Part shown: positions 17,351 to 64,000 of the stretch, in pieces
Numbering within the stretch: position 1 is the first letter of the stretch
Layout of the letters: each line of letters opens with the position of its first letter
Assembly (NCBI RefSeq): GCF_949628265.1
Contig: NC_088790.1
Location: 2,732,545 to 2,796,544 of the forward strand
Source: Cloeon dipterum
Lineage: Eukaryota > Arthropoda > Insecta > Ephemeroptera > Baetidae
Direction of reading: 5' to 3'
Length of the DNA: 64,000 bases
Position numbers and translations under genes: made by a program
Notes under the pieces: model-generated
Told to the model about the DNA's origin: nothing
Database searches by the model: none
What the model saw: the letters and a program-made list of their open reading frames with translations, nothing else

Positions 17351-20300
17351 ATGGATCCCTCTGCTGTGCACCAAGTGTGTGCTCAACTTGTCGGTGCTGT
17401 AGAGGTGTCTCTGGACCCAAACGCCAGTGTGAGCAAAAGAAGGGAAGCGTATGAAGCATGCGAGCAGTTTAAAGAAAATTCTCCTATATGCGCACAATGT
17501 GGACAAGTGCTTGCCCAGCTGCCAAATCCAGCTATCATCAGGCATTTTGGGCTCCAACTCATGGAACATTGCATACGACACCGGTGGAACGTGCTCTCAA
17601 TCGAAGATAAACTTTTCATCAAGGCAAGTAACCAGTCAAAGTTGCTGAGGGCCGTAAATCGGTGGTTTTTGGTTGACCAATCGGAGAAGAGAGTGGGTCT
17701 GATCAGCCAGATCGAGACAGCAGCGCCACAGCGACAGCCAGCGGAAGTGAGTCTTGCAACAAGTCCAGCTGTCTTGTCTATCCCTTCTCTGATTGGTCGC
17801 CGGCGTTCTTCACACCAAAGATCCACCAATAGCAACGGCTTTCATGTTTTCGGCGCTTTTTGTGCCGAATTTTCAATTTTCCTAACTCGACCCTGAGGAA
17901 TTGTTTGGCATTGCTTAAAATGAATATTTCCTCACGTGTGAACAGGAAAGCAGCATGCAACTGTTGCGAGGAGGCACCCTTTCCATGTTTGATGAACAAT
18001 CGCACATCAAGGACGCGATTGCAAGACTTATCGTGGAGATGGTGAAGCGCGAGTGGCCTCAGCAGTGGCCCAGCTTTCTCGAGGAGATGGACGCGCTCTG
18101 CAAGCGCGGCCCAACGCAAGCTGAGCTTGCGTTGCTGATTTTCAGACGCCTTGCTGAGGATGTAGCCGTTCTTCAAGTAATTGTAGTTTATTGCCAATAA
18201 TCTTTTGATTAAATTTTTGAATTGTTAGACCCTTGAATCAAATCAGAGGCGTAAGGACATACACCACGCCTTGAACGCAAACATGGAGAGCATCTTTGGC
18301 TTCTTCCTGCACGTAATTAACACTAATTTGCAACTAATTGGCAACGCTGAAGCAAACAAAATTCCACTGAAGCTATGTGAAGTATATAGGCGCATTTAAT
18401 CCCATCAAGAAAAATGGTTTAAACAATAATTTCCAGGTTGTTTTGAAAACTCTGAGTGCGTTTGTTGAATGGGTCTCATCGGCTGCACTAATCTACAATA
18501 ATGGACAGCTCTTGCATTCCCTCTGTGCTTTGCTCAATGATTCTCAGTGCGAACCTGTTCTTTACGCAGCAGCCGAGTGTCTAGTTCAGGTATTAGTTCA
18601 GAACTGTCCTCCTATTTTCCATAATCGACTCCTGTTTTTCAGATTTTGAACAGAAAGGGATCTTGGGAAGAGCGGCAGTTTGCTGTGTTGCTTCTGCAAA
18701 ATCCGCACACGATGAACTGCATTTGCATGGCCGCGGAAAGAGGCTTGCGCTGTCCTCCGAGTGAGCCAGTGTACTTGTTCCTGAAACTGCTGACACAGGT
18801 TGTGACTGGCCTCGGATCTCAAATGCAATATCTTCTGGCCAAGGACGCCAGCACTGCGCTGCCAGCAAACTTTTCCATTTTTCTGGAGGTTCTCATGCTC
18901 TTCACGCAGCATCCAAGCCATGTGATTACCAGAGAGTGCAATTCTCTTTGGGCCGCATTTTTCAAGCACAATCAAATTTCGAAAAATCCTGAATTCATAT
19001 TCTTTGCGAAGCGATGGATCGAGATTTCTGTTCCTAAGGTTTGTGGATTTTTGTCTTGCATAAATGATTGTTTGGTATGAGAGGTCATTTTTCCGGAAAA
19101 TCTGCCTCAGGGAGCTAACTAAAGTGAGATTATTTTGAGTTCTGATGATGTTAGAATGTCATTGAGTTTATACAAGTTGTTGTCCATCCAAATGGCACAA
19201 AGTTTTGTTAGGAATTGAGATAATCTCAATTTTCTCAGCTCCGAGAGTGTGATTGGTCCTCATCTAAATCAAATCTCTCGTGGAATCGTCTAGCTTAAAA
19301 GAATAATTAAGTTGTCATTACAGTGCATGAAAGTTGGGGTGCCAAGCCAAACAGAATGCGCCTCATCAGTCTACTCGACCATGGATTTTGACTCGGATGA
19401 AGAGTTTTTCGTATTTTTCCACCGCTACCGGGCCGAAATGCAAGATTGTTTGAACCAGGTCACTCTGATTCTTCCCCTGGAGGCGTTCGAGTACGCTGAA
19501 TACTGTCTGAAGACCGTCATGTCCAAGGAAACGCCAGCCGTGTGCTCCTTTTTCACTCCTCTGGTCATCGAATGGGAGGCAGTGACCGTCGTGCTCGACT
19601 CGGTTCTCAACAAAATCCTGCACTGCGCCGTACGGCCGTCACCAGCCGCCGGGCTCGGCTTGATAAAGCAGTGTCTGCAGTTGCAGAACAACGATCCCTT
19701 CATCATGTCCTTCGTGCTATCCAGCATATCCGCGCTCTTCGTCTTCCTCAGCATGGACCAGGCGTGCGCAGCCACGCTGCCGCAAGTCCTGCAGAAGATT
19801 TTCTCAGCTTTGGTCTTCGCCCTGCCTGGACAGACCAAGGACAAACGAACGAGAGCCGTGAAGAACGTGAGGAGACACGCGGCCTCGCTGATGGTGAAGC
19901 TGGCGCAGAAGTATCCGCTGCTCTTGCTACCTTTGTTCGACGAGATCAAGGTGACCATCAACAACCTGTCCACGGCACCGGACCAACTGTCCCAGCTGGA
20001 GATCGTCACTCTGCAGGAGGCCCTGATTCTGGTCAGCAACCACTTCAACGACTACGCCAGACAAACGAGCTTCATCGCTGAAACGATCGAGCCGATTTCT
20101 CCCATTTGGGTTTCGCTCGGGCCTGTTTTCAGTGACGTGAGGGCTTTCATGTCCTACGTGGGCTTGGACAAACCGCCCGTCGAACCCAGCACTGAGGACA
20201 CGAACGGCAAGAACCGATCTCGAATAATGCGCTGCACCAAATTGCTGTTCGCCATCATCAGACGCTCCCAGTGGCCGACCGACCCTGAACTGCAGGCCAA

Positions 20301-22322
20301 AGGGGGCTTCATCGCGTGCCACACGCCCAACGGCGTTCCTGTGCAGAAAAATCCTGCCGCGCCGCACTTCCTACCTAACTTCTTGCCCCAGCTTTTGGCG
20401 CTGTGCAAGACGCTGCATGACCTCTGGAAGCCGGATGCTCTCGCAGCGCTTTCTGAAGGCTACAAGAAGTGCAACGACATGGTTGAGGTAACTCAAATTT
20501 TATTAATTTTTAGAAATTCAACTAAATAAACAGCACGGGCTCTTCAGACGTTAGAAAATGTAGCTGAAAAGTCGAGGAAAAAGCGGTTTTAAACAGTAAA
20601 CTTTTGCTCGAGTCGAGATATCAACTGAGGACGGTCGAAATCGACTTACAGGATCTGTCCTTGACCAGACCCAGAGATTAAAAATTTCGTAAATTATTAC
20701 AATTGTCATCGAAATTTGCGTCTTTTCCTAGGTTTTCGCCTCTGCAAAGCTCAAATTAAAATCCAAAACTGCTGAATGACAATCCTGAAACCAGTCCTTG
20801 AAATATTTGTGGAAGCCATCAACCCTGACGTGATTTTAAAATTAATTAAATATGTTTCAGGAATTGAAACGTAATGCGTTGGGAACAAACGTAACGTCTT
20901 GGTCTGTGGTCGAGTCGGCAGAGCACAAACCCCAATCGCCGCTGGAACGCATGCAGAATTTCCTAACCACCCTGTACGAGCACTGCTACCTCATTCTCGG
21001 CGCCGCTGGAGTTTCTTTCGGTCACGACTTCTACAGCATTCCAATGCTCTCGGAAAACCTGGTACTCTCAGTGTTTACCGACCTGGATCACGTGCCAGAC
21101 TACAGACTCCGATCCCTGATTCGTCCCTTCCTCAAATCCTTCATTTCCTGCTGCCCGTCTAGTTACTACGAAATCCTGAAGCCGCTTCTCTCGGCAATCT
21201 GTCCCTACAGTGAGTACATTTCGAGCCAAATCAAAGGCTGGTGTTAAGTTTCATTCTCTTCTAGTGTACCAAAGACTGACAAACAAGTGGCAGCACATTG
21301 CAAGTCTCTACGACAATGGAGAAATCGAGAGCCCTGAGACTTGTGATACTCAAGTGAGTCCAATGATAAGTAATAAAGCTATATAATTTTTTAAATTCCC
21401 TAGTGCTGTGAGGCTGTTTTGGAGGATAATCTGAACAGACTGCTCTCTCGCGAATATTTCGACCTCCTGAGGGCGGTGCTCATCGGATCTAGTCCAGGAT
21501 TTTCAGCCGCCACTGACGAAACGATGGACGTTCCCATGGACGCGGGCCCACTCAACGCCAAAAACACCGAAGTCATCAGCGATCTCGGCAAACAAATGTT
21601 GAGTGTAGACGTTATCTGCCAGTCCGTATTCCTTTGTGTTTTAAAGTGAGTTGTCAAAAGTTTTGCCCTGCCTGTTCAAAAAAACTTTATTTGTTTCAGA
21701 GCATTTTCTTGGTCGGACAACACGTTATCTCAAAGAGCGACTCAACTGACGCTGCCACTTGTGAAGCTGTTGTTTGCGGAAAGCAAACTGTCAGACCAAG
21801 CGGTTTCCCACATAATGTGTTCGATTCTCCATGGGCTGGAGGTGCAGGGAGAGCACGAAAATGTCAGCACAAGTTTCACCCATTTAGGAGCTTCAGTTTA
21901 CGACTTACTCAGGCCGCAGTTTGCGGTCGTCAAAGAGGTAAATTAACGGATTCTTGTCAGATTTTCAAATTTTGATTCAATCCTCATTTAAGATTATGCT
22001 CAGCATTCCTGGGACAAGTGTGGAAGACGTTAACCGCCTCGATGAAAAAGTGCTCAATCCAGTCAAAGGAGCAAAAAGGGAGAAATCAATCAGGGACTCC
22101 TTCAGAAAAATTTCTCTCAAGGTAGGAATCGTATTGATTGTTAATTTATTTTTAATTTGCCCGTTTCAGATCACGAATGAAGGCACAAGCAAGCTCTTCC
22201 AAAAGAAAGTCAACATCAAAGATCTGCGACCCATGCCACGGAAGGTCAAAGTGTCGTCTTCTCTCATGGACAGCCCGGATGTCCAGCATAATGTTCTTGA
22301 TGATTTATTTGGAAACTGGTAA
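17351..22322 (+). CDS. XPO5: Exportin-5 (12 coding exons)
   Basis: Importin-beta family exporter that carries pre-miRNAs and other double-stranded RNAs out of the nucleus with RanGTP. The exons are 17351-17623, 17946-18176, 18229-18381, 18437-18589, 18643-19038, 19324-20487, 20861-21209, 21265-21353, 21404-21645, 21700-21937, 21993-22121 and 22170-22322. They give 1189 residues (human 1204). Diagnostic blocks are 'IIRHFGLQLMEHCIRHRWN', 'HIKDAIARLIVEMVKREWPQ', 'RRLAEDVAVLQ', 'MDFDSDEEFFVFF', 'TRAVKNVRRHA', 'EALILVSNHFNDYARQ', 'WPTDPELQAKGGF', 'FLTTLYEHCYLILG' and the C-terminal 'LFQKKVNIKDLRPM'. The first intron uses a GC donor (AAG|GCAAGT), supported by phase and by the family join IK|ESSMQLL. 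A family A repeat begins seven bases inside it. The gene converges on cyclophilin B. Confidence 0.95.
17630..17913. repeat. Family A repeat filling exportin-5 intron 1
   Basis: The left end 'ccagtcaaagttgctgaggg' and right end 'ctcgaccctgaggaattg' are inverted relatives of each other and of the ends of the copy at 46,864-47,150. The interior 'cgagacagcagcgccacagc' is shared with both other copies. It occupies most of the 322-base intron. Confidence 0.65.
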
Positions 22323-44991: not shown

Positions 44992-47900
44992 ATGGCGGAT
45001 GAAGAGGTGAGGTAAGCATCCGATGGCTCCTGCCAGCGAATTTCTACTCTTTGCCAAAGTGCGGTGACTTTTAAAACGATCCCCCATTGCAGCATGCGAG
45101 AGAAATTTTAGCATGGTTTTGAATTTTCAATTACTTTCAGTAGTTCGATATTTCCACAGCCCCCTTAAATTTTTTAATTTAAATTAAATGAGGAAAATGG
45201 TAGTTAGTTTATATAGTGCCTTGGGTTTTGGAGTGTAAATTAATCAGATTGATTTTGGACTGGTTTGACCCTAATACAGCAGCTCGGAGGAAGAGAGCCA
45301 GCAGGAAATTGACAAGCGCGAGGTGCGTATAGCGTTTGGAGTTGATTAGTTTTATTTAAAGTGGATCTCTACAGCAAAATCACGATTGATTTCCAATTTC
45401 GGCGACTTTCCTCAATATTCGTGCTCCAAGCGTTGCAAAAATCCGCACTCAATTTTGCCTCAGTTTTAAAAAATGTTCTAATCTTTTTCTCATGACCTCG
45501 ACTTGAAAATTTTTAAAAATAAATATTTGGAGAAATTGAGGCAGAAAATGGCAATTATAGAAAACAAAATCTACACAGTAGAGCAAATTTTGACCTCTCC
45601 GACCGAAAATTTTAGATTTTCACAGGAAAAAATTCATTTCCTACTTTAATTGCGCAAAAATTTAGTGATAAAAACCAGAGGTGAAAAAACGGGTGGCAAG
45701 CAAAAAATAAGAACAAAAATTTAAAACCCCGTTTTATTGGACATTCTGAAATAAAACTCAGCCCTCCCTGATTTTATTTTTGTATTAATTATCAGTCAGT
45801 AAAGATCCACTTTAAATTACATCTTGTACAAATTTAATCCCTTAACAAATTTGAGGTTTAAAATCAACCAACCAACCTGGACTCGTTCTAATTCGCAACC
45901 CTTCTTTTTCAGAACAAAAAAATGGAAGAGGCATGTTGGAAAAACCTATAGGAATGCTCTCAACATAATCTTAGCGAAATTCCAAATGCGACTCGATCTG
46001 TTTGGCATTTCTGTCCTAAATATGCTGAGGTGCATGGTGCCAGAAAGAACTCGCAGCTAGTCCAAACTTGAAATTTAATTTAATCTCGAATTGGCGAATA
46101 ATTGCGGTGGCTGCGAGTTCTCGCTGGCGAGGGTCCGTCGTGGCCCTGGCTGCGGACGGCGCTAAGTGTGGCCCTGTGCCTCCAGGAGAAGAAGAAGAAG
46201 CAGGCCGAAATCGAGGCCAAGCGCGCCGAAGTGCGTAAGCGCATGGAGGAGGCGTCCAAGGCCAAGAAGGCCAAGAAGGGCTTCATGACACCTGAGAGGA
46301 AGAAGAAACTCAGGGTGAGTTGCGCCTCGAGACGAATAGGAGAGCAAAAATAACGCCCTGGGGTTGCAGTTGCTGCTGCGTAAGAAAGCCGCTGAGGAAC
46401 TGAAGAAGGAGCAGGAGCGCAAGGCCGCCGAGCGTAAGCGCATCATCGACGAGCGCTGCGGAAGCCCCCAGGACCTCGACGATGCCAACGACGGTACGAA
46501 CCCTTGCATTCTTCTTCTTACTCTTTTGCCTCCTTCCGGCCACAATTTTCGGGTTTTGTCAAATGCAGTTTCAACTTTTGAGTAAGGATTTTTTGATTAC
46601 AAACCAAACAAAGCAGCAACATGAATATCATTATCGAGAGTGGCTATTTTTGATATAAAAAAATACGCGGTGACACAATTCACGCTACAGATTTTTATTT
46701 TTAGTTTGCCACACAGAAACAGAATTTCAGTTTTACTGGGGAGGAACAAATGCAAAAGACTGCACAGATTTTATTTTGATTTCTCTCTTTCTCCACACAA
46801 GATGGTGCCCCTGTAATTTTTAAGGTTCTACATTTAGCCCTGAATTTCATTTTTTGACAAAGCCAGTCGATTCCTGAGGGTCGAATCAGGTTCAGCAGCC
46901 GGGTTTTGGTTCACATATAAAGCGCCACCAACCAATCAGAGAAAGGAGCGGTTCTCTGATTGACTAGACCGAGACAGCAGCGCCACAGTGACAGCCAGTG
47001 GCGCTCGTGTCTCGATCTGATTGGTTCTTGCGGCTAGATTCAAACCAAAAACCGCCAAAATAACGGTTTTTTTCGTTTTCATCTACTTTTCGACAGAAAG
47101 ATTCGGCTGTCTAAACTAATTCGACCCTAAGGAATGCAATGGCACTGTCAGAAATGACTTTCCAGAGCTAGATTTTAATAATTGACTGGAATTCAAGCAC
47201 TGTGACTAATAGTGTAATTGGTCAGGCGATGTGAAGAAGTTGTGCGAAAAATACCACAACCGAATTGCGGGGCTTGAGGTTGAAAAGTATGACCTTGAAT
47301 ACGAGGTGTCCAAGAAGGACTACGAGGTCAGCCACGAAACACTATTCCAGTTATTCTGCTCTCTCTTTTGTTATTTCTTTTTCAAAGCAAGCGCAAAGCA
47401 AGAGCTTTTCCAGTTAATAATCTCTCATTGACAACATGCACATAAAATTCTCCCCTGCTGCTGACAATTCTGCGCACCAGCTTCTCATAATCAGTGGTGT
47501 TTGCTTACACACGCACGCACACAAAGACACAGTGTTACGCGAGCTTCTCACGCGAGTTTGAGGCGACTTTTGTACAGACAAGACACACACCTACACACAC
47601 TTATAGCGATGCCCTGGCCCCAGAAAGACACACTCGCGCGTGCTGGGCTCTCATCGCGAGCAAGCAAGCAAAAGTTTCACTTTTCAACTGCACTCGCGCT
47701 CGCTGCACCGAATCCGTACGAGTGCGAATTTGCATTAAATCAATAAGCGAAGGAAGCCATTGGTCGGTCGGCCGGTCGGTCGGTCGGCAGGTGCTTCTCG
47801 CTCGCGACTTAGTTTTTGTGATGACGGCCCAGGACACACACGGCCAGGGCATACCGCGACCTCCTGTTCTATACTGTCAGTCTGACTTTCGTGAAGTTGG

Positions 47901-50900
47901 TTTGGAGACAAAACATAAAGATTATCGTTATTAGCATGTGCTGCGTCACGCCACTCATAAAATTTCCTTCTTTCCGACTGTCTACCTTATGTTGATGTAT
48001 ATTGAATGTCCTAAACAGACAACAATCCTTTATTCCATTTACAGCTGAACTGCAGACCATTATTAAACAATACTGGGAGAGGTTGTTCCTCCTCGAAGGG
48101 GATAAATATGACCTAGAGAGAGCTATGAAACTAAGACAGTTCGAGGTAAATCCGCTCTCTTCTAGGAACTGGTTACTGATTTTTGCCAGAATATTAATAG
48201 AAAATGCGCGGATTTTTTTGGATTGTGGATTATTATTATTATGACATTAATTTTTTCACATCAATTCACGCAAATTTCGTCGGACTCAGACCAAAAATTC
48301 GCAGCTTCGTTGAAATCTGTTTTTTTTTCGTTCGTCTGATTCTGTCGTGAAATCTCTCGCTGAAAAACTTGTGGCAGAAAATGATCACCCTTTCCACTCG
48401 CCTTTCAACTCTTCCTCCATCCTTGCCCCTCAGCTCTATTTGCAGGAGAAGTGACTTCTTAATAATTACATCTGCCTATAGTGGAACTGAAAGAGATCCT
48501 GCAGTCCTATTTTGATCGCGTATACCTGTGCGAAGGTCAGAAATGGGATTTGGAACATGAAGTGAGAAAGAGAGATTACGAGGTATGCAAGCCCGCTGGC
48601 CTATTCAAAAATGCTGTGCAGGCGTCATTTTTCCTCATTTTTAAGAAATATCATATCTATATATATACATAAAGTGTACCATTTTTTATCCTATAAAGAA
48701 GAGATTTCACGCCTGGCCAGCTCTGGGGCGGTTCGGATCTGACAGGGCCCATTATCGAAAACATTTTTTTGACCAGTCCCTAGGGCAGTGAACGGATGTC
48801 GAGTCGTATTTTTAACTCCTTTGCACTTGGACCAGAGCCAACCTATTTTCGGGGAGGTGTGGAATGGGACTTTTTTTTAAAAGACCGTCTTTTACAAAGT
48901 TTCCGAGCACACCAATCGATTCTTGAGGGTCGAATCAGGTAAAGTGCATATTTTTTCCCTTCTAAAAGTGCAGCGCGACATGCCAACTTTTTTTCCCGCC
49001 AAAACAAAATGAATGCGAGAAGTGCGCATGTGTCAAAGCTGGTTTGAGCAATTGTAGAGAGACACCGCGCCTGTACGAATGACTTATTTGTCAGATCCAG
49101 CCGGCTCTGACGCATGCGCACTTCTCGCATTCATTTTGTTTTGGCGGGAAAAAATTTCGCACACTTGACTTTTTGTTCGGAAAAAAGATCCATTTTCCCT
49201 AATTCGAGCCTCAAGAATCGATTGGTGTGCTCAGAAACTTGAAATAAAATGTTGTCTCGTAAATGTTTCCCCAAACGTGAATGCACCCCTTGTTTGTGTT
49301 GTTCGAAAACCTGCCTCTCACCGTCAGAACCCCCTCAAAAATGAAAAAAAATAAATGGCATTATTCGACTTCACTGCCCTAATAATTCCAAGTTGCACGC
49401 GCGGCGCAGAGAGGACCATATTCATTTTTACATAGGGATGATCTGCAGCAGTAGTAAATAATAAATCATTCAAAAAACCCCACGGACCCGATTACTCCAG
49501 GGCTGGCTTTTGGCTGCGGAATGTCATTAGCTTGGAATCGGCGTGTGTGTGGTGCAAACTTCCCAGCTGCCAAATCCTCCCCTAATCACCTCTCTCTTTG
49601 GCCTCATTTGATGAGTCACGGTCAGCTCTTTCTCATTTTCAGTACCACCCGATAACTTCTAATGCATCCCTTTAGCGGGTACAGCATGAATAGGCCCAAA
49701 ATGTGTACAAAAATACTCACTGCTACTGTAAATAGCTCTCCTCTCTCCTTAAAACCCGTTGCTGCCCAGTGGCGCTTTGATTTCCACTTTTGAGTATTTT
49801 GTCTCTTCGAGACATCATATAATATATATTTATATCATGCGTTCCAACTCTCTCTCTCTCATTATACGATTTACATTACATACTGCGCGGAGTGTGCTGG
49901 TCAACCACGATGGTTGAGGGGATACTCGTCGCATATTATTTTCGTCACAGTTTGTTTCATGGCCACTGAATGCGGCACGACAACATCCAAATCTCCACCA
50001 AATCCTCCTCGCTTCCTGATTGATTTTTGTCTCTCACTTCCTTCGAACTTTGTAAAACCTTGGTCTGAGCTGATGAGGATTTTGCACCAGTTGGCAGTGT
50101 GATTTGTAGCAATCATTACCCGATGAGTCCCACTAAAATGTTCAAAATTAATCGCAAATCACGCCCCCGGTTGAAATTGGGTGGAAAAAAATGCTGCATG
50201 GTGCCGGCAAATACAGATACTATTTTTCCGTGGATATTAGATTTTTAATGCTGAGAGTAGTAGATTTGGAAAATCAAAACGTCCATGGTGTGCACTCCTT
50301 TTGCTCGTTTTTTACTAGAAAAATTCTTTGACACGCTTTCAGTGTATCTATGGCTTGAATTGCTTTTGAATGTACTTTTTCTTCATCTCTAACCAACTGT
50401 TGACATAACACCCAATAACAACTTTCAACTATTAAGCAGTTGCATTTTTAAATTTCTCCCTTTTGGAAGCATTTCACTCTCGCAACTAAAATGCAGCTGC
50501 TTTTTAGCGCGCACTGGTTGTCGGACAGGCGTTAATCGGTTTTATTCGTTGCAGATTTCCGACCTCAACAGCCAAGTCAACGACCTTCGCGGCAAATTGT
50601 AAGTAACTGCTTGAGCCGAATTTTGGAATTTTTGCATTTTTTTGCTCGTGAGAGGCCCGTAAGCTGACCTCGCCCTGATCTTTCTAGCGTGAAACCTACC
50701 CTGAAGAAGGTTTCCAAGTACGAGAACAAATTCGCCAAACTGCAGAAGAAGGCGGCTGAGTTCAACTTCCGTAACCAGCTCAAGGTCGTCAAGAAGAAAG
50801 AATTCCAGCTTGAGGAGGAAGACAAGGAGGTAAATTTCCCTTTTTTTCAGCGATTTATTCGGTGTCCCAAATAGAACGCTTTACTCCAGGATTCGCCAAA

Positions 50901-51875
50901 TTTGCCATGCGCCGGTAATAACCCGCCAATTTTTGGATTTTTCCGCATTTTTCCAATTTTCATATCACATAAAAATACCATAAAATTATGGCATTGAAAA
51001 AAATTGAAATTAACATCTTTGCCAAAAATCTTTAGTGGTGATAATTTTAGTTTTCGAGAAATTGCACTTGAAATTTTTAAAAATTAAATTTTTCGATTTT
51101 TTAGGTACTTTGCCCCTCCAAATCTCGGGTTCTGATTATCAGAATTGCACAAACTAGCCACCGTTAGGCTCGTCTTGACCTCCACTAACTAACCAAAGTG
51201 TTAACGGGGTGCTTAACCCATCCCCTTTCAACCCCATTGCTGCAAAATTGATAAAAAATTATTATACTTCCTCTGGAAATTTTTTTAACCATCCAAAACT
51301 CTTTCTAAAATACCACTCCGTCCCAAAAACAGAAAAATTTCAAAATATTCAGAGCTTAAAAATTTGTCACTTTTTTGAGAGGGTTGATGAAGTATAGCAA
51401 CTTAGGGGCGGACGGTAAGAACCCCTAAACCCAACAACTGGTTAGGGAACGTCGAGACGAGTCCAACGGTGGGTAATCTTTGCAATTCTGGTGATTAGAA
51501 CCCGAGATTTGGAGGTGCAAAATTAACGAAATTTTAAAAATTCATATTTTTGAAATGGGAATTTCTCGAAAATTCCCTGAACTGCAATTCCATTAACTGC
51601 AATATTCACACTTGTCATGGGACATTTTTTTTTAGCAAATTGCAAAACCAAATTAAAAAATCAAATTTATATTTTTAATTTTTAATGATCCGTTTTTTGC
51701 GATGCATTGTTTTCTCCCGGAAAAAAATCGGATTTTTTGCGAACCCTACTTAACTCCAATCTTAATTTGAACGCGAGCTAATGCGTGTGTCTCTTCTGTT
51801 TAATTGCAGAAGAAACCCGACTGGTCCAAATCCAAGGATGAAAAGAAGGTAAAAGAAGAAGAAGTTGAAGCTTAA
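44992..51875 (+). CDS. wupA: Troponin I (wupA type), short C-terminal isoforms
   Basis: Inhibitory subunit of the thin-filament troponin complex in striated muscle. The exons are 44992-45011, 45280-45322, 46186-46314, 46370-46493, one of three alternatives (47226-47326, 48045-48145, 48482-48582), 50555-50598, 50688-50829 and 51810-51875. The form with all of these has 222 residues. The near-invariant insect core is present: '[20 protein letters not shown]', '[12 protein letters not shown]', '[20 protein letters not shown]', '[20 protein letters not shown]', '[18 protein letters not shown]', 'KKPDWSK'. A first donor at 45005 (GAG|GTGAGG) is in phase 0 and would join exon 3 directly, skipping the acidic [14 protein letters not shown] cassette. 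The short form ends VKEEEVEA and uses an AATAAA at 52498-52503. Gene layout and alternative exons match Drosophila wupA, which has four exon-6 variants. Confidence 0.96.
46864..47150. repeat. Family A repeat in the troponin I intron before the alternative exons
   Basis: The left end 'ccagtcgattcctgagggtc' and right end 'ttcgaccctaaggaatgcaa' are inverted relatives. The interior holds 'cgagacagcagcgccacagt' and 'aaaataacggttttt', shared with copies at 1-345 and 17,630-17,913. It ends about 75 bases before the first alternative exon. Confidence 0.65.
47226..47326 (+). CDS. wupA: Troponin I alternative exon, variant 1
   Basis: A 101-nt phase 1-1 exon that joins G|GC and encodes [20 protein letters not shown] followed by [14 protein letters not shown]. 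It resembles the Drosophila exon that ends DYE. It is used instead of, not together with, the two variants downstream, as judged by identical length, phase and the shared xYDLExx motif. Confidence 0.9.
47327..48044. other. Intron between troponin I alternative exons 1 and 2
   Basis: About 700 bases, with CA-rich stretches and a 'ggtcggtcggccggtcggtc' run at about 47,762-47,790. I searched by eye for a fourth 101-nt variant exon and did not find one. Confidence 0.4.
48045..48145 (+). CDS. wupA: Troponin I alternative exon, variant 2
   Basis: A 101-nt exon with acceptor 'tccatttacag' and donor GAG|GTAAAT. It encodes [20 protein letters not shown] followed by [14 protein letters not shown]. Same phase and length as the other variants, with a more hydrophobic centre (RLFLLEG). 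Confidence 0.9.
48482..48582 (+). CDS. wupA: Troponin I alternative exon, variant 3
   Basis: A 101-nt exon with acceptor 'tctgcctatag' and donor GAG|GTATGC. It encodes [20 protein letters not shown] followed by [14 protein letters not shown]. The Tyr of the KYDLE motif is Trp here. It differs from the other variants at most positions in the first half. Confidence 0.9.
48893..49245. repeat. Foldback MITE (family B) in the troponin I intron
   Basis: The left end 'gagcacaccaatcgattctt' is repeated inverted at 49,210-49,236 and extends to 'gaggNtcgaat'. Inner arms also pair: 'cccgccaaaacaaaatgaat' near 48,993 with 'ttcattttgttttggcggga' near 49,131, and 'gaagtgcgcatg' with 'catgcgcacttc'. Total about 350 bases. 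The end motif 'tcgattcttgagggtcgaat' is related to family A ends. Confidence 0.75.
49246..50554. other. Troponin I intron
   Basis: About 1.3 kb between the last alternative exon and exon 50555-50598, apart from the foldback element. No coding sequence is recognised. Confidence 0.5.
51085..51545. repeat. Foldback form of repeat family D in a troponin I intron
   Basis: The left arm (about 51,110-51,240) contains 'ctccaaatctcgggttctga' and 'gcttaacccatcccctttca'. The right arm (about 51,395-51,530) is its inverse with 'aacccgagatttggagg'. Similar single arms occur at 4,830-5,240, 58,085-58,445 and 58,880-59,010. Confidence 0.65.
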
Positions 51876-53112
51876 TGTTCTATATATTATTTTATTTTAC
51901 TTCTTCCGATTACCATTCTGTGAATTTTTGATCGCGTTTCAACTCTTTATCATAAACTGAATTTGATGTCAGTCGTGTTTTGTCTACGAATTTTTGGGGG
52001 CCAGGTCGCCAAACAGAATCGTAAGGTGGTTCCGTGTCCCTTTTGCAAAATTCAAATCGAGCTGGAATTTTTTCCATTTTGTCTCGCAGCCTGCATGCCA
52101 GGCCATTTTTGTTTTCATTGGCCGAATTTGTGTGTTTTGCTTCACAAATACGTTTTCATTTTTTTTCTCTCTCTCTCCACCTCCATGAACGTGTACCATT
52201 TTAGATCTAGTTTCTGTAGACTTGTGCCCGCCCTTTGTCGAGGAAAAATTTTCTCAAACAACTCCTTCACTCCCTTTTTAAGATAAACACACTCACGACA
52301 TCAAATGCCATCCAGCAGAGCAACGAAACAAATCACATCTCAAACTAAACACACGAATCTCTTTGTTTCAATTAATGTGAACACTGAGTTGGACAAAGTC
52401 TATCAATTGTCTGAAACCCATTAAAACCTGGTTATTTCTCTTGTATGTTGAAACTGTTTGTGTGACAAATGAAGCGACCAGCGGCTATTTATTTCGCAAT
52501 AAAAAAACCTGGATTCGATTCGTCCCATCCACGTTGTTGTGTCTGTTTTCTCACTAGAGTCTCCACACCTTTTAGTCTCGAGTATATTTTGTGCCACAAA
52601 GACGTTTTTTGAATGTTTTTGCTGGAACCCACCTGCATGCTCCAAACCGATTTTCGACAGGAATTTTTTGGACCAGCCCTTTGTCGTGTGAATTCGAACA
52701 TTGCATGCGAGCAACCACCATCTGAGCAGCTGATGTTTTTGCGATTTTTTGGTAATCTAGAGAGATTTTGACACGGCATGTACAGTCAACCGACGAGGCG
52801 TAAGTATCAGAGAATCGAGAAGCTGGCAAACAGGTACGTTCCAGTCCAAGGGAATTTGATTTAAAATTAGATTAGTACGCAGCTCATGTAAATTGCAAAT
52901 TTGAGTTAATTGGACGCGGTGCACTTTCGCTGCCGCTTGAATATTTAATCTAAATAAATTTCCAATAGATTGACTAAACGACTGACAAATTCACTGATTG
53001 ACCAAATTAAATAAATACAAATTTGAGTAGTCACGCATAAAATTTAAATTCCACCTAACCGCAAAGGTCCTGCACGCGGACTGTCAATGCTAAGCCACTA
53101 ATTCGCTTGTAG
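51876..53112. other. Troponin I short-form 3' UTR, then spacer within the long-form intron
   Basis: The 3' UTR of the short TnI mRNA runs to the AATAAA at 52498-52503. Beyond it is AT-rich intron of the long (TnH) form, with no recognised coding sequence before 53113. Confidence 0.5.
52498..52503 (+). terminator. Poly(A) signal of the short troponin I mRNA
   Basis: An AATAAA hexamer 623 bases after the short-form stop codon, upstream of the Pro-Ala exons. Use of this site would preclude the troponin H form. Confidence 0.5.
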
Positions 53113-55870
53113 AAAGGAGAAGCTGCCGAGGGCGAGGCAGCAGCTGAGGGAGCCCCTGCCGAGGGCGAAGCCCCCGCCGAAGGCGAAGCTCCTGCCGCTC
53201 CCGCGGAGGGAGAGGCTGCTCCTCCTGCAGACGGAGCCGCACCACCTGCCGAAGGCGCACCTGCCGAGGTAAACCTCCTACACTGCACAGAATCTATGAT
53301 TTTTCTTTCGCTACCATATTCGATTGCGTTTGATAGAAGATAGAATCTTACAGTTTAACTGCCATAATTTCTTGAAAAGCAAATTGGATTTGAATAAACT
53401 TTACATATCTGGAATCTGCTCAGCGAGATGAATTGAATGATGTGTCATTTTATATACTTTTGAGAAGTTTTGAGTTTTTTCACAATTTTGTAATAGACCC
53501 GCAATGGCTTTTAAGAGTTTTAATTTTTTTGACGTGATTTGCATCAAATCAAGCCATGTTTAGGCCATTTCAATTTACTTGCTGGTTACTTTTTAAAATG
53601 GCCTTCCCTCGGTAAATTGGAAAAAGTTTTTTAATCCAGGAATATTTAAAATAAAATTAATTTGCAAATAATTTTTGCTCCAATTTCTACCACTTCGTTT
53701 TAATCAGATCCAAGATTTTCTTCTAATTTCAAACCCTGTACGATGGTAGGAAGGAAACCAATTTCTACACGGATCTCCTTGTAAAATTTAATTTCAGGAT
53801 TAGAGGTTACAAAATATTTTCTTTCCACTTGGAATTTTTAAAAAAATCGTTTTCTACAAAATTAAACAAAGGTTGTAGGGGCGATCGGAAAATACAAAAA
53901 TGACCATTTTAGGGCGCACCACCCGCAGAGGGAGCACCACCTGCCGAAGGCGCTGCACCGCCCGCAGACGGAGCAGCACCACCAGCGGAAGGAGGTAATG
54001 AGGATGTTTCCCAAGTTCTATAACGAATTCTAAACGCAAACACACGTTGCTAAACACGAAACTATTTGAATGCAAGCTAAACTTAAAACGCTTTGAGATG
54101 TTAATACCATATTTTGTATATAAAACTACTTTCTTAACAGGTAAATGAAAAATAACTTGACACAAAAACGAACACTCTACAAAATACACATTATTTTACG
54201 ACTTTTGATTTCTAGCCAGGGTCTTTTTCGACGGTTTTTTCAATTTTTTATTTTCGTGGCCATTTTTGCCACTCCGTAAACCAATTTGCTGGTTTGCTTT
54301 TCACCGTTTTCCCTTTTATTTTGTTCTGCTTGCCATCTTTTCGGCAAGAATTCATTTTGGCAGAATCCAGACAGTGTATGCACTTAGTTGGCAAGGGTCT
54401 AGAATTTTGACGAAATTTTGTTGGACCTGAAAATTTTTTTTTGGTGTATAAATTAATCTGAAATTCCTGCCCGACACCATTGTAGGTCACTTCGTGTATA
54501 TCGAAGGGATCAAAGAGATAGCCGAAAGTTGCCTCATTTAATTGAGAACATTTTATAAAAATTTCGATTTGTTTCGCAAAAATGCACCCCTAAAATAAAA
54601 AAAAAACCTTTTTTTCAAACCCCCTAAAAATTGAAAAGCACTAATTTTAAGCAGATTTTGAATCAATATCGAGTCTGGGGAAAGGGGGTTGAAAACAATC
54701 CCTTTCCCTGCGGGTGAGGTTTTGTAATAAACCGAATTTGGCCGCTTTTGTCTATTCCCATGTGTTTGATCCCGCAGAACTCGAATATGAGGTCAAATTA
54801 GAACTATATGAGCCCAATTTTTTTGCCTTTTGGATCACCTTCAGGGCAACATCTCCACCACCCCTGTGTTAAAAACAAAAACAACGTTTTTGTCACCCCT
54901 TAAAATTTTCGTTGCAAAGCAAACTTAGCCGTTCTTGGTGTCGATTCCTATTTTTTTTGACCCGGCAGAACTCGATTTTGGGATAAATTCACATTTTTTA
55001 ACCTTTTGGGACAACAACTCCACCAAAATCTCATCAAAATCCGAGACCCTTGCGAACGAAATGCCTATATTGTGTGGATCCTCTTTTTTTATCAATAAAC
55101 ACTCTTCCAAATCTCTGCTCTGATAATAAAAAACTAATTCAAATTAATGGAGCGCCAGCGCGGATAGCGGAAACGGGAAGGAGCGCCAAGAAAGCAGCCC
55201 TTCTGTGCTAAAGCCAAAAAGAACCTGGGCTCGAAACGACCCTGCCATTAAAAGACTAATTAATAAATCTAACCGCACGAACGCTTTTCTAGCTCCTGCA
55301 CCTCCCGCAGACGGCGCTGCTCCGGCCGAAGGTGCTGCACCCCCCGCCGAGGGTGCAGCGCCGGCCGAGGGTGCGCCCGCTCCCGCCGAGGGCGCTCCCG
55401 CGGCCCCGGTCGAGGGTGCTCCCGCGGCTCCCGTCGAGGGTGCCCCCGCGGCTCCTGCCGAGGGCGCCGCTCCCGCGCCTGCCGAGGGTGCCCCCGCGGC
55501 GCCCGCCGAGGGCGCTGCTCCCGCGCCTGCCGAGGGTGCCCCCGCGGCTCCCGCCGCCGAAGGTACAGTCCCGCCCGCTGAGGGGGCCCCCGCCGCTCCC
55601 GCCGCTGAGGGAACCGCACCCGCTGACGGTGCCGCCCCTCCCGCCCCAGCACCTGCTGCTGCTGAGGGCGCCGCGCCCGCCCCTGCCGAGGCAGCTCCGG
55701 CCCCAGAAACCCCGGCTGCAGCCCCTACTGATGCTGTTCCTCCTCCTCCAGCAGAGGCTGCGCCCGCCGCCGAAGCCGCACCCGCCGCCCCCGCTGCAGA
55801 GGCCGCCCCTGCCGCCGAAGCCGCTCCCGCACCGGAAGCCGCCCCCGCCGCAGAGGCACCCCCCGCATAA
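53113..55870 (+). CDS. wupA: Troponin H C-terminal extension exons of the troponin I gene
   Basis: Exons 53113-53268, 53913-53994 and 55293-55870 join in frame to exon 51810-51848, using an internal donor (AAG|GTAAAA) 27 bases before the short-form stop. They add 270 residues composed almost only of Ala, Pro, Glu and Gly (KGEAAEGEAAAEGAPAEGEA..., then APAEGAP-type repeats), ending AAEAPPA and TAA. The full TnH form would be 484 residues. From the literature as I recall it, troponin H of insect flight muscle carries such a Pro-Ala-rich tail: on TnI in Lethocerus and on tropomyosin in Drosophila. The tail is thought to extend from the thin filament and to bind partners such as glutathione S-transferase. 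The GC-rich exon 3 has 30-base tandem repeats. Poly(A) signals lie at 55986-55991 and 56010-56015. Confidence 0.88.
53400..53460 (+). repeat. Repeat family E fragment in the troponin H intron
   Basis: It contains 'ggaatctgctcagcgagatg' followed by 'aattgaatgatgtgtcattt', matching the family core seen at 38.2 and 38.5 kb. Confidence 0.5.
53995..55292. other. Last intron of the troponin H form
   Basis: About 1.3 kb of AT-rich DNA. Bases 54,600-54,760 resemble the 'gggggtgaggttt' part of repeat family C, seen again at about 54,840-54,960. No coding sequence is seen. Confidence 0.4.
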
Positions 55871-56015
55871 ACGTTCCGAGCCGCACCACCAAAATCACTT
55901 CACTAACTGTTCCGTCACGAATTGGTGCCCTCAAAGGTCACGAGAGCTCTGGACGAGGTTCCATTTAAAATGTATTCACTGTATGAATAAAAGCTACATC
56001 ACGGTGTCAAATAAA

Positions 56016-57079
56016 TGTAATGTACTATTTTAAGGTATGTTTTGTCACGTCAATACCAACATCACCTCGACCATGTTGGCTCTGCCTTTTCTATTTAGCT
56101 CTTTCAAACTTTACTTACAATTAGCGCACAATTTTGGTTTATGGTATGTTTTATAGAGGTGTCGAAATAACCAAGTTCTCTGCCGATTCAATTAAATAAA
56201 TTTATTCCGGGAAATCAGGTTTGAAGATATTTTACATATTGGAGTAATTTGTTTTAGTTGGAGTATTTTTTTGCATCTTACAAACGTCATTTTATCATTT
56301 TTCCCTGAGTATTGAATAAAACGGTTCCCTGAGTGAGTGCAAACGTGCTAAGAAATTTTCAGAGTGGGGTTAAATGTTTGTCCCAGAGATTCAGAGGGTC
56401 AACAGTCGAAAAAATGATGATTTTGACCCTCGAAACATTCTTAGTGTCACTACTGAGGTCACATGAGATCATCAGAACAGGTAAAAAATCGAACCCTGGA
56501 GTCAGGGTAGCTTTCGAGCGATCCATAGCCACTTAAAATACGCCTGACAGGCTCTGTTTTTGTTCAATTTGCAAGACCTGCACACCAATGGAATTGCCAA
56601 GTCAAGAGCTTTAAGAAAGAATATGTTCAATTCGACCACTTTGGAAGGCATCAGAGCAACTTCAGGGTACTCAGGAACGAGATCTGGGCGTTTTCTGAGC
56701 GCCCTGGTAGCTTTCAAAATGGGTCGAGCTACACATATTCTGAAAGCTCTCGACTTAAAATCAACCAATCAAGCAATTTTGATTTTTTTTTCTTCAAAAT
56801 TAAGCCGAAAAAATGCCCTTGGCCCTCCGCATCTTGAATACTAAAAATTGTGTCCACCCTGAAAGTTTCCAAGCATATTACACACACTCAAAGGGAAATA
56901 CTAGGCTATACATATTCAGAATAATTAAAATAAAGTATATTCAAATTTAAAATCGGGAATTTAAAACCGATTTCCCTTCAAACTTGGTTCAATTAACACC
57001 TCTATAATCATCTTTTTTCTCAAACAAAAAATCATCATTTTTAAAATGAGCAAGACAATTTGTTTTTATTTTTTTACCT
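56016..57079. other. Spacer between convergent troponin I/H and FIG4
   Basis: AT-rich. No conserved coding sequence is recognised. A minus-strand AATAAA (57065-57070) just after the FIG4 stop codon may end the FIG4 mRNA. Confidence 0.45.
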
Positions 57080-60000: not shown

Positions 60001-62911
60001 ACGCGATGTCGTCCAGCCAGCCCATCACGTTTGCACCGATTCTGTTGCATTGAAAAATAAATTAATTACATAATTTTAACTACTGCTCCTCTCAAAGCTG
60101 AATTTTAATGAAAAGAAAACCTTTTACGCCTTTGCACATGAGACAAAAAAAAGGGAAAAAATATCTTTTAATTTTTCAATGGTCGCGAAAATCTCCAAAT
60201 CGGTCTCCAGACCAGCGTTGGACCAGCAGGTGCGATGGAGTGTGTGGGAACCCATTATGGGCCAATTTTCTATGTTATTCTTATGGAAAAAGTGCAAAAA
60301 TCTCGTTTATGATCCGATAGACTCGCAATTGGTCTCAAAATTTTTTCAGATCATATTTGCATTGATATATAAAGTTGGGCTTGTCAAAGTCAATCAAGAG
60401 AATAAAAAAAATCTTAAGCATGAAAATCCAGCCTGGGAACGGATCTCAGGTCGGGGTGTTCTGAAAAAGGTCTTTAGGGTATCCTAAGTTTAAGTCCAAT
60501 CAAACACCTGTCTGATGAGGGGTTGTGGTCGACGATCGGACAAACGGCTGGATTAAAAAAAAAAATTGAAAATGTTCACTTTTTTCGACAAGCGGTCACT
60601 CCTTACCAAGGGGCATCGATTGTACTTTGTACAGTTTGGCCCCGAAATCAAAAGTTTGAAATGTCACTTATCACGTTTTTTCGAATTTAAAAAATAATAG
60701 CACGGCTCCAATGGGTCGCACAGTAAAAACCATAGTTAGTTAGACTCGCCGTGAAATTCTGCAATTTTTAGGCCATTAGGCAGGCCCCGCTCGCCTCCAC
60801 TCCCAAAATCAGCGATTTTTTAAGTGTTTGGTTTTTTTAAATCCAACTTCAGGCTTTCATAAATTACTAAGGTTCTTAGAAGGGAAAAGAGGGCCTTACG
60901 ACTTGTTTTTCCGCGCCATGTCAAAGCTTGTGTACTGAATGTGGTGTTCAGGTGGCAGGAACTGGTTCAGGTAGCGCACCGAATTCATGTACTCCTCGCT
61001 GAGTAAGCTTTCTTGCTTTTTCTTTTCCCTCTTCTTCACTAGGTTGAGGATTATCACAGGGGCACCGTACCTCATGAACAGGTTGTTGAAGTGGTTGCCT
61101 GAATTTTGAATTAAAAAATATATTTAGTTGACAGTTGACACCCTTTTGGCATGGAAAACTGAAACTTTAGTGCGGATTAAGGTCAAAAATGTTCCATGTT
61201 TAAGGAGATCAGCTTCATAATATATATATAAAAAAAAGGAAAATGGGAGCATGATAATATGTTGAAATTTAGAACAGATTCGAGTTACTTGTGACGAAAT
61301 ACATTTAAAAGGACACCAAAAAACACTTATTTACAAAAAAAAAACACCCCCAGGAAGCAGGGTAGGTTTCAGCCCCGAAACATGACCTCAAATGGTCAAA
61401 ATGCATTATTTTTTAAATAAAATTTGGGTCAAATAGACACTCAAAATCAGTCCAAAAATTTGCTTTTCCCCTTTCTAAAAAAAATAAAAAGCGATTTTCA
61501 GGGCGTTTTAATTTGATTTTTTCTACAAAAGAGGAAAAGGAGTGTACCCAATTTTTATATGTTGTTGGCACATATACCACATTTTGGAAATTTTTTTAAT
61601 TTTAGAAATTTGTACTAGGAATTTCTTATTTTTTCCCGTTGTTTTAGGCAAAAATTAAAAGCTTCATTCCATGCCAACAGAATTGACTTGAAACCTCAGA
61701 TAAAAAATTACCTGCAGTAATTGCAAAAGGATCAGGGATGTCGATGCTGATTACCGGCTTTGGTTTGATATTAGTTATGGATTGGCTCCAATGGGTCGGG
61801 ATGGAGCCTCTCATCTGTACAAATGAGGAGAAACATCCCAGCTCCAACGAGGACAGCTTCGAGTCGTGCACAATCTGCTCCGTTTCGACCTCGTTTGCGA
61901 CATCTCCGAGGAAATTGGCGCCTCTTTTCAGGAATCTCGTGCCGGCATACTTGTTGGACCTTCTTGCAATCACAGTTATGTAAATGGAGCGTCCGTAAAT
62001 GCTGAGGTTGGACTGTCCGACAAAGCCGTGGACAACGTCGATTATCCACTCCGAGTTCATGATGCGCTTTGCGTCTTTCATCAAGTACGAGTTCCAGATG
62101 AAGCGCTCGTTGGGCACGTTCTTGAACACGAAGCTCTGGTCTCCACTCATCAACCCTTTCAGGGCGTCGTTAGTTACAGGAGTCATGTTGCATTGAAGAG
62201 TGTTTGAAATATCGTAGCTATAGCTGGAAATTATTAAAAATGTATTTTTCAACTGAATGTCATTTTTGTAAACAGAACCAAACCTGAAGTAAAAATTGCT
62301 AGAAAGGTAGATGTTTTGAAACATTTTGACGTAGCGAGACTCGTCTGGGTGGTAGTGCCGTATTCCATCGTTCGGAATATAAATCATAGCGGTATCTTCA
62401 ATTTTATAAATAGAGTGGTAGCCTATCACAGCGATTCTGGTTCTTTTGGTAATCAATATTATGTAATAGCCCTCGAGGAATCTAACAAATCCTGAAACAA
62501 ATTATGAGATTATCTAATATTTATGTCATTCAAATTTTGTTTTTATTTTACCAACAATCCCAAAGGCAGAAACAACTTTGCAAATTCCAGAGCCAGTCGA
62601 TCTTGGGCCAGTCTTGATTCTGTTTCCTCCGTCAATCGTGTTAACCAAATCTTTAATTTGGTCTTTTGAGTAGAGTATGTTGTCATCAGTGATGTTCAAC
62701 TCTTTCGGTTCCATTCGGTCGATTTTCAGAACTCTACATCTCGTTTGTGAATTGTTGGAACCGAGCAAGTAAAACCGCTAAATTTGAGCAGATTAGATTG
62801 AAAAAGGAATTAATTTAAATTAATGGAATTTACCGATCTTGTTTCGTAAAGAGCTATCTTTTGGATTGGGCTGATGGCTCCAAAGCAGTTTGCTGACATT
62901 CTTTCGTTCAT
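57080..62911 (-). CDS. FIG4: FIG4 / SAC3 polyphosphoinositide 5-phosphatase (10 exons)
   Basis: SAC-domain phosphatase that works with PIKfyve (Fab1) and VAC14 on endolysosomes and removes the 5-phosphate of PI(3,5)P2. The minus-strand exons are 62834-62911, 62552-62777, 62284-62491, 61712-62223, 60900-61098, 59557-60041, 58597-58732, 57554-57904, 57334-57504 and 57080-57278. The phases agree throughout and give 854 residues (human 907). The N-terminus '[18 protein letters not shown]' is FIG4-specific. SAC-domain blocks include '[19 protein letters not shown]', '[17 protein letters not shown]', '[17 protein letters not shown]', 'IPTHWSQ' and the catalytic CX5R motif [12 protein letters not shown] (Cys472, Arg478). 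Downstream, '[10 protein letters not shown]' and '[12 protein letters not shown]' match the FIG4 C-terminal region, and a Ser/Thr-rich linker ([11 protein letters not shown]) follows. Two large introns carry repeat family D pieces. Confidence 0.95.
58085..58445. repeat. Repeat family D, copy in a FIG4 intron
   Basis: It shows 'acaagcccgattgaataaac', 'aaatcttgggttcaaactgt', 'gcacaccgttta' and 'gggtgctcacccccaaccc', the same order as 4,830-5,240. An inverted partial copy lies at 58,880-59,010, ending 'ggaatccgagatttggagtt'. Confidence 0.55.
60060..60899. other. FIG4 intron 5, about 0.86 kb
   Basis: AT-rich intron between the exons at 60900-61098 and 59557-60041. Short open frames here show no similarity to known proteins. 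No repeat family was matched. Confidence 0.45.
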
Positions 62912-63826: not shown

Positions 63827-64000
63827 ATGTCCGAGCGAAAAGTTTTAAATGTAAGTATTTGTGTTTATTGTTGTATTTTTCGTTCGGTAATATCATATTT
63901 TTTACTTCACAGAAATACTACCCTCCGGATTTTGATCCGTCCAAAATCCCACGCATGAAATTGCCAAAAAACAGACAATACACTGTCCGTTTGATGGCTC
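63827..64000 (+). CDS. YJU2: YJU2 splicing factor homologue (CCDC94), N-terminal part, cut by the window end
   Basis: YJU2/Cwc16 joins the spliceosome at catalytic activation and promotes the first step of splicing. Exon 63827-63850 encodes MSERKVLN. After a short intron, exon 63913 onward continues [20 protein letters not shown] followed by RQYTVRLMA, where the window ends. This is almost identical to the N-terminus of human CCDC94. The zinc-binding CxxC region would follow beyond the edge. Confidence 0.95.

Follow-up and report, generated by a model that had tools for sequence, protein, structure and literature searches.

In the flight muscle of Lethocerus, troponin H (TnH) is described as troponin I (TnI) plus a Pro-Ala half in one polypeptide, the TnI sequence lying N-terminal and the Pro-Ala-rich part C-terminal. 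With antibodies, TnH is reported to have been detected in every winged insect examined, and in cicadas it forms a 75-80 kDa band that reacts with antibody MAC143. The literature agrees that the Pro-Ala tail belongs to tropomyosin in Diptera and to TnI in other insects (PMC4657346, PMC13322953). The second of these sources is a review of studies on the lattice and on stretch activation, and for Apis and Anopheles it refers to Herranz et al. (2005). Here, we analyse a stretch of 64,000 nucleotides from the mayfly Cloeon dipterum (assembly GCF_949628265.1, contig NC_088790.1, positions 2,732,545 to 2,796,544 of the forward strand), referred to in full as the window. Its plus strand carries an insect troponin I gene (TnI, wupA-type), and this gene of a winged insect very probably ends in a composite terminal exon that yields either ordinary TnI or a Pro-Ala-tailed TnH.

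With Lethocerus TnH, the predicted mayfly protein shares the order of its two parts within one polypeptide. It differs in being known from DNA alone and in its dimensions, with a tail of 271 residues and a calculated mass of 48.6 kDa for the whole protein. In Apis, Herranz et al. in 2005 reportedly described a flight-muscle TnI isoform of high molecular weight with APPAEGA-type sequence, derived from a single TnI gene, and they are said to have called the fly and bee forms independent. One gene and an APPAEGA-type tail would thus be common to both species (APPAEGA occurs four times and PAEGA 14 times in the Cloeon tail), whereas Apis is holometabolous. The dipteran heavy tropomyosins (TmH-33/34) likewise bear a Pro-Ala-Gly-Glu-rich C-terminal extension, which is described as flight-muscle specific. 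In contrast to the mayfly tail, theirs sits on tropomyosin, and none was found in the stretches of the Cloeon tropomyosin loci examined below. Drosophila wupA is the same gene as the one in the window and has flight-muscle and tubular terminations, but the Pro-Ala tail of flies is on tropomyosin rather than TnI. Finally, the secreted and membrane forms of immunoglobulin mu arise from a composite terminal exon; this gene is unrelated, and yet the layout is the same, with an internal donor in the last coding exon and with the alternative intron enclosing the stop and the poly(A) site. In the literature searched, whose coverage leaves out most subscription journals, no description of a TnH gene from a mayfly came to light; the one paper retrieved on troponin and mayfly flight muscle mentions TnH only through a fly TnH paper in its reference list. 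A preliminary description of this locus had cited TnI-linked TnH from Lethocerus and a tropomyosin-linked tail from flies. Both points agree with the literature, except that TnH on TnI is reported well beyond Lethocerus.

The identity of the gene follows from its product. The Pfam Troponin domain matches residues 60-189 with 143 bits (cut-off 26.2), and the short form matches 22 distinct sequences in the Protein Data Bank, every one of which is named as troponin I or, among the weaker matches, as troponin T. Exon ends were placed from splice sites plus reading frame. The terminal exon of the short form (51810-51875) ends in the TAA stop at 51873-51875 and completes a protein of 222 residues and 26 kDa. 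It is followed by an AATAAA poly(A) signal at 52498-52503 and a GT-rich run at about 52533-52550. Upstream of this stop, the exon contains an internal phase-0 donor, AAG/GTAAAA, which closes the exon part 51810-51848 (5' splice site GTAAAA, 51849-51854). Joining position 51848 to three downstream exons rich in Ala, Pro, Glu, and Gly gives the long form of 485 residues. The first of these tail exons (53113-53268) has 156 nt and encodes 52 residues of Ala/Glu/Gly/Pro type, the second (53913-53994) has 82 nt and runs from phase 0 to phase 1, and the third (55293-55870) holds the remaining tail and the long-form stop at 55868-55870.

The acceptor before 53113 reads gcttgtag/AAAGGA, the donors of the tail exons read GAG/gtaaac (53268) and GAG/gtaatg (53994), and acceptors precede 53913 and 55293. 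The frame is preserved across all three tail junctions, and the gene model is open and in phase for all three choices of exon 6, with both endings. Beyond the long-form stop, a hexamer scan detects two AATAAA signals at 55986 and 56010 (55986-56015). Little weight can be given to the hexamer on its own, as AATAAA recurs at nine further places, from 52953 to 55262, within the three long-form introns. The locus thus has the layout of a composite terminal exon, in which an internal donor lies upstream of the stop and poly(A) signal of the last exon. The preliminary description had placed the normal stop, the internal donor, the three tail exons in frame, their own poly(A) signals, and the short-form signal in between as given here, correct to the base; its proposal that a single TnI gene, by means of an internal 5' splice site, codes for both TnI and a TnH with a Pro-Ala tail is upheld by the gene model. 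The tail exons are unequal in their effect on the frame: omission of 53913-53994 would abolish the tail frame, and omission of 53113-53268 would keep it. With the second tail exon skipped, the last exon would stay open in a frame rich in Leu, Arg, and Pro as far as a stop at 56031-56033.

The internal donor has a predicted U1 pairing of -6.8 kcal/mol, and the values for the gene's donors span -4.3 to -10.2 kcal/mol. Of the three GTs in its exon, it pairs best, and just 2.4% of the 1146 GT sites between 40000 and 63990 pair as well or better. Six of the gene's other donors pair less well than the internal one, and three more lie within 0.1 kcal/mol of it; on predicted pairing, it is a donor of middle strength and not a specially weak one. 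Its near-equality with other donors, such as the one after 50829, would suit a gene that always adds the tail and makes TnH only, the stop at 51873 and its poly(A) signal being vestigial. We consider such a constitutive tail unlikely, as the short ending is intact, the short stop is followed by a well-formed poly(A) signal with its GT-rich run, and leg and tensor muscles of cicadas are reported to lack the heavy band. Moreover, we take the short ending to resemble the end of Drosophila TnI, AKVKEEVEAEA. A terminal exon with two outcomes remains the preferred reading.

Of the 271 tail residues, 95% are Ala (123), Pro (68), Glu (37), and Gly (29). The underlying DNA is highly repetitive and GC-rich, as a noncoding low-complexity repeat with chance splice sites would also be. 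For a codon-position test, 30-base windows of the joined tail were compared pairwise, with identical pairs excluded. At an identity of at least 21/30, 914 window pairs were obtained, in which every offset is a multiple of 3 and the mismatches at codon positions 1, 2, and 3 number 1296 : 1058 : 4809, counts that are not independent because the windows overlap. With at least 26 identities, 48 pairs remain, with 2, 19, and 132 mismatches at the three positions. The repeat copies thus differ 3.7-4.5 times as often at third positions as at first or second ones, and both this bias and the offsets leave the noncoding repeat with a probability close to nil. Since the near-repeats differ mainly at third codon positions, the tail reads as constrained coding sequence.

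The third-position test is blind to the difference between the plus frame and its mirror frame on the minus strand, in which third positions coincide, and a minus-strand frame of 251 residues is indeed open at 55144-55899. To this extent, the Ala/Pro exons might be part of another transcript, or be encoded on the minus strand, and fit TnI by coincidence. We regard this as very improbable: three splice junctions are phase-consistent with TnI, and the composition agrees with the known make-up of TnH. Further, the plus-strand tail contains no Met, and its frame is preceded by an in-frame TAG at the first tail acceptor; it therefore cannot begin a protein of its own with ATG. The junctions settle the plus strand, as the TnI frame is maintained across all three pairs of donor and acceptor. 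Read as a C-terminal extension of TnI, the tail makes the predicted long form a match to the TnH known from other insects.

We infer from this arrangement that splicing at the internal donor competes with cleavage at the poly(A) site marked by the signal at 52498. If the transcript is cleaved near 52520 and the donor after 51848 is ignored, ordinary 26-kDa TnI would result. Splicing at the internal donor would remove the short-form stop and poly(A) site together with the intron and add the three tail exons, and the product would be a 485-residue TnH with an acidic, probably disordered Pro-Ala-rich tail. Both mRNAs would presumably be produced, the long form most likely for flight muscle. Muscle-specific ends of the TnI gene have a precedent, because the choice between the flight-muscle and the tubular ending of Drosophila wupA depends on Bru1 (PMC11081514, PMC8742874). 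By analogy, a CELF-type factor would be a fair guess for the regulator in Cloeon. A splice-versus-polyadenylation switch of this kind, if it operates, could help to set flight-muscle identity.

Several observations weigh against a TnH made and regulated in this way. The open frame of the tail is weak evidence for coding because GC-rich repeats of this type offer several open frames, on the plus and the minus strand alike. The exact motif GESGAGKT is absent from the tail, though one paper ascribes such repeats to the extension; it names them beside the Pro-Ala make-up, and we do not take them as defining TnH. The calculated 48.6 kDa falls below the 75-80 kDa reported for TnH on gels, on which Pro-Ala-type tails commonly migrate slowly. 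Among the junctions, the acceptor before 53913 has 6 pyrimidines in 15 positions, fewer than the background average of 7.5; at each of the two remaining tail acceptors the count is 9 of 15, inside the range of 7-12 seen at the remaining acceptors of the gene. Finally, Bruno-like motifs are not clearly enriched over their expected counts in the intron 51849-53112, in which six regulator motifs were tried (P values uncorrected for six tests). TGTGT occurs 4 times against 2.0 expected (P 0.135), TATGT once against 1.1, and TGTTT 8 times against 5.3 (P 0.153); with TGCT included, P ranges from 0.135 to 0.85.

The same intron contains three copies of TGCATG, which we take to be the Rbfox motif, against 0.41 expected (P 0.009, uncorrected), at 52093, 52635, and 52703 as coordinates of the inner GCATG. 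GCATG itself is found 4 times against 1.0 expected (P 0.017, uncorrected). No conclusion is drawn from either count.

The assembly searched for related sequences comprises 190,111,064 bases in 10 contigs, of which C1, C2, and C5 are labels used in that search. The Troponin domain gave three matches. Two, at C5:2778908 and C5:2779772, are exons of the window gene, and the third, at C1:25536178, reads by eye as troponin T. Thus, the window gene is the only troponin I found in the genome search. The search with the tail returned only its three exons and one weak match of 33% identity at C2:19773879-19774388. We rejected the latter as a source of the tail, as it belongs to an unrelated tandem array of QPKVEGV. 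The surrounding region, C2:19773000-19775000, is a long tandem array coding QPKVEGV-type repeats and is open in several frames. The preliminary description had expected the genomic layout to show how the fusion arose; this expectation is not supported by the layout alone, and the genome search yielded neither a second copy nor an obvious source of the tail.

The tropomyosin search identified two loci, both on C2. In 17 kb examined at these loci, reaching about 3 kb past the last exon found at each and covering, of the larger locus, its 3' part, there is no Ala/Pro-rich frame. The richest 25-residue windows contain 14 and 15 residues of A, P, G, or E. A tail on tropomyosin, as in Diptera, was therefore rejected for the tropomyosin stretches examined. 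As far as searched, the tail of Cloeon dipterum follows the troponin and not the dipteran tropomyosin arrangement.

The main value of the finding is that the mayfly example stands near the base of the winged insects and provides a clean genomic model of TnH from an order near their root. Genomes can now address the question of whether, when flight originated, the tail was present once, on TnI, and was moved to tropomyosin only in flies. The internal donor overlaps the Lys-Val-Lys codons of the short form (AAG/GTA AAA), and because of this overlap the A at donor position +5 is fixed. Tentatively, and with somewhat less than even confidence, we suggest that TnI-linked TnH made through an internal donor in a composite last exon goes back to the last ancestor shared by the winged insects, the dipteran tropomyosin tail being a later move. 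On this reading, the overlap with the Lys-Val-Lys motif would hold the donor below full strength, in line with its mid-range predicted pairing, and might thereby have left the gene prone to a regulated splicing decision and able to acquire exons downstream.

Upstream of the terminal exon, the gene begins with a first coding exon that contains the ATG (44992-45011) and has tandem donors after 45006 and 45011, 5 nt apart, both assigned from in-frame translations. A likely N-terminal cassette exon of 43 nt follows at 45280-45322, and its acceptor is a NAGNAG site. The donor at 45011 keeps the frame only with this cassette and the donor at 45006 only with the cassette skipped; the other two pairings disrupt the frame. 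Two further coding exons lie at 46186-46314 and 46370-46493, both placed by in-frame translation, the second of them inside the Pfam Troponin domain. The mutually exclusive exon 6 is present in three copies of 101 nt each (47226-47326, 48045-48145, and 48482-48582), and each gives an open frame of 222 or 485 residues; in Drosophila, we take the number of copies to be four. Exon 7 (50555-50598) and exon 8 (50688-50829), again assigned by in-frame translation, follow.

Among the neighbouring genes, an amine-oxidoreductase-type exon (329-1534) and an exportin-5 exon (19294-20529) lie upstream on the plus strand. Downstream, the minus strand holds an exon of a SacI-domain phosphatase (Syja_N) at 61644-62501, which is presumably FIG4-like. 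We take 63827-64000, at the end of the window, to be the start of a YJU2/CCDC94-like gene.

Elsewhere in the genome, no exact five-fold repeat of TTAGG or TCAGG is present; TTAGG is reported to be absent in Ephemeroptera and likewise in Odonata and Diptera (PMC8977481). A search for odorant-binding proteins, a family for which an expansion is expected in Cloeon, gave one match from four candidates, the exon-by-exon search being weak for this family. For the Cloeon dipterum genome, a size of 180 Mb is given in the literature, together with a cluster of four long-wave opsins and a tandem pair of blue opsins, and expanded long-wave opsins are described for Odonata as well (PMC7250882). Among mayflies, Neocloeon triangulifer also has a public genome (PMC11634025). 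We find four distinct tandem opsin genes at C2:19053310-19066564, each with the retinal lysine in FAK, and we judge these to be of long-wave type from the 39-69% identity of their matched stretches to fly Rh1. At C1:2255528-2258108, where the lysine pattern of the C2 cluster was not found and the residue is followed by DP in place of NP, there are two adjacent opsin-like genes, the first nearly whole and the second recovered in part.

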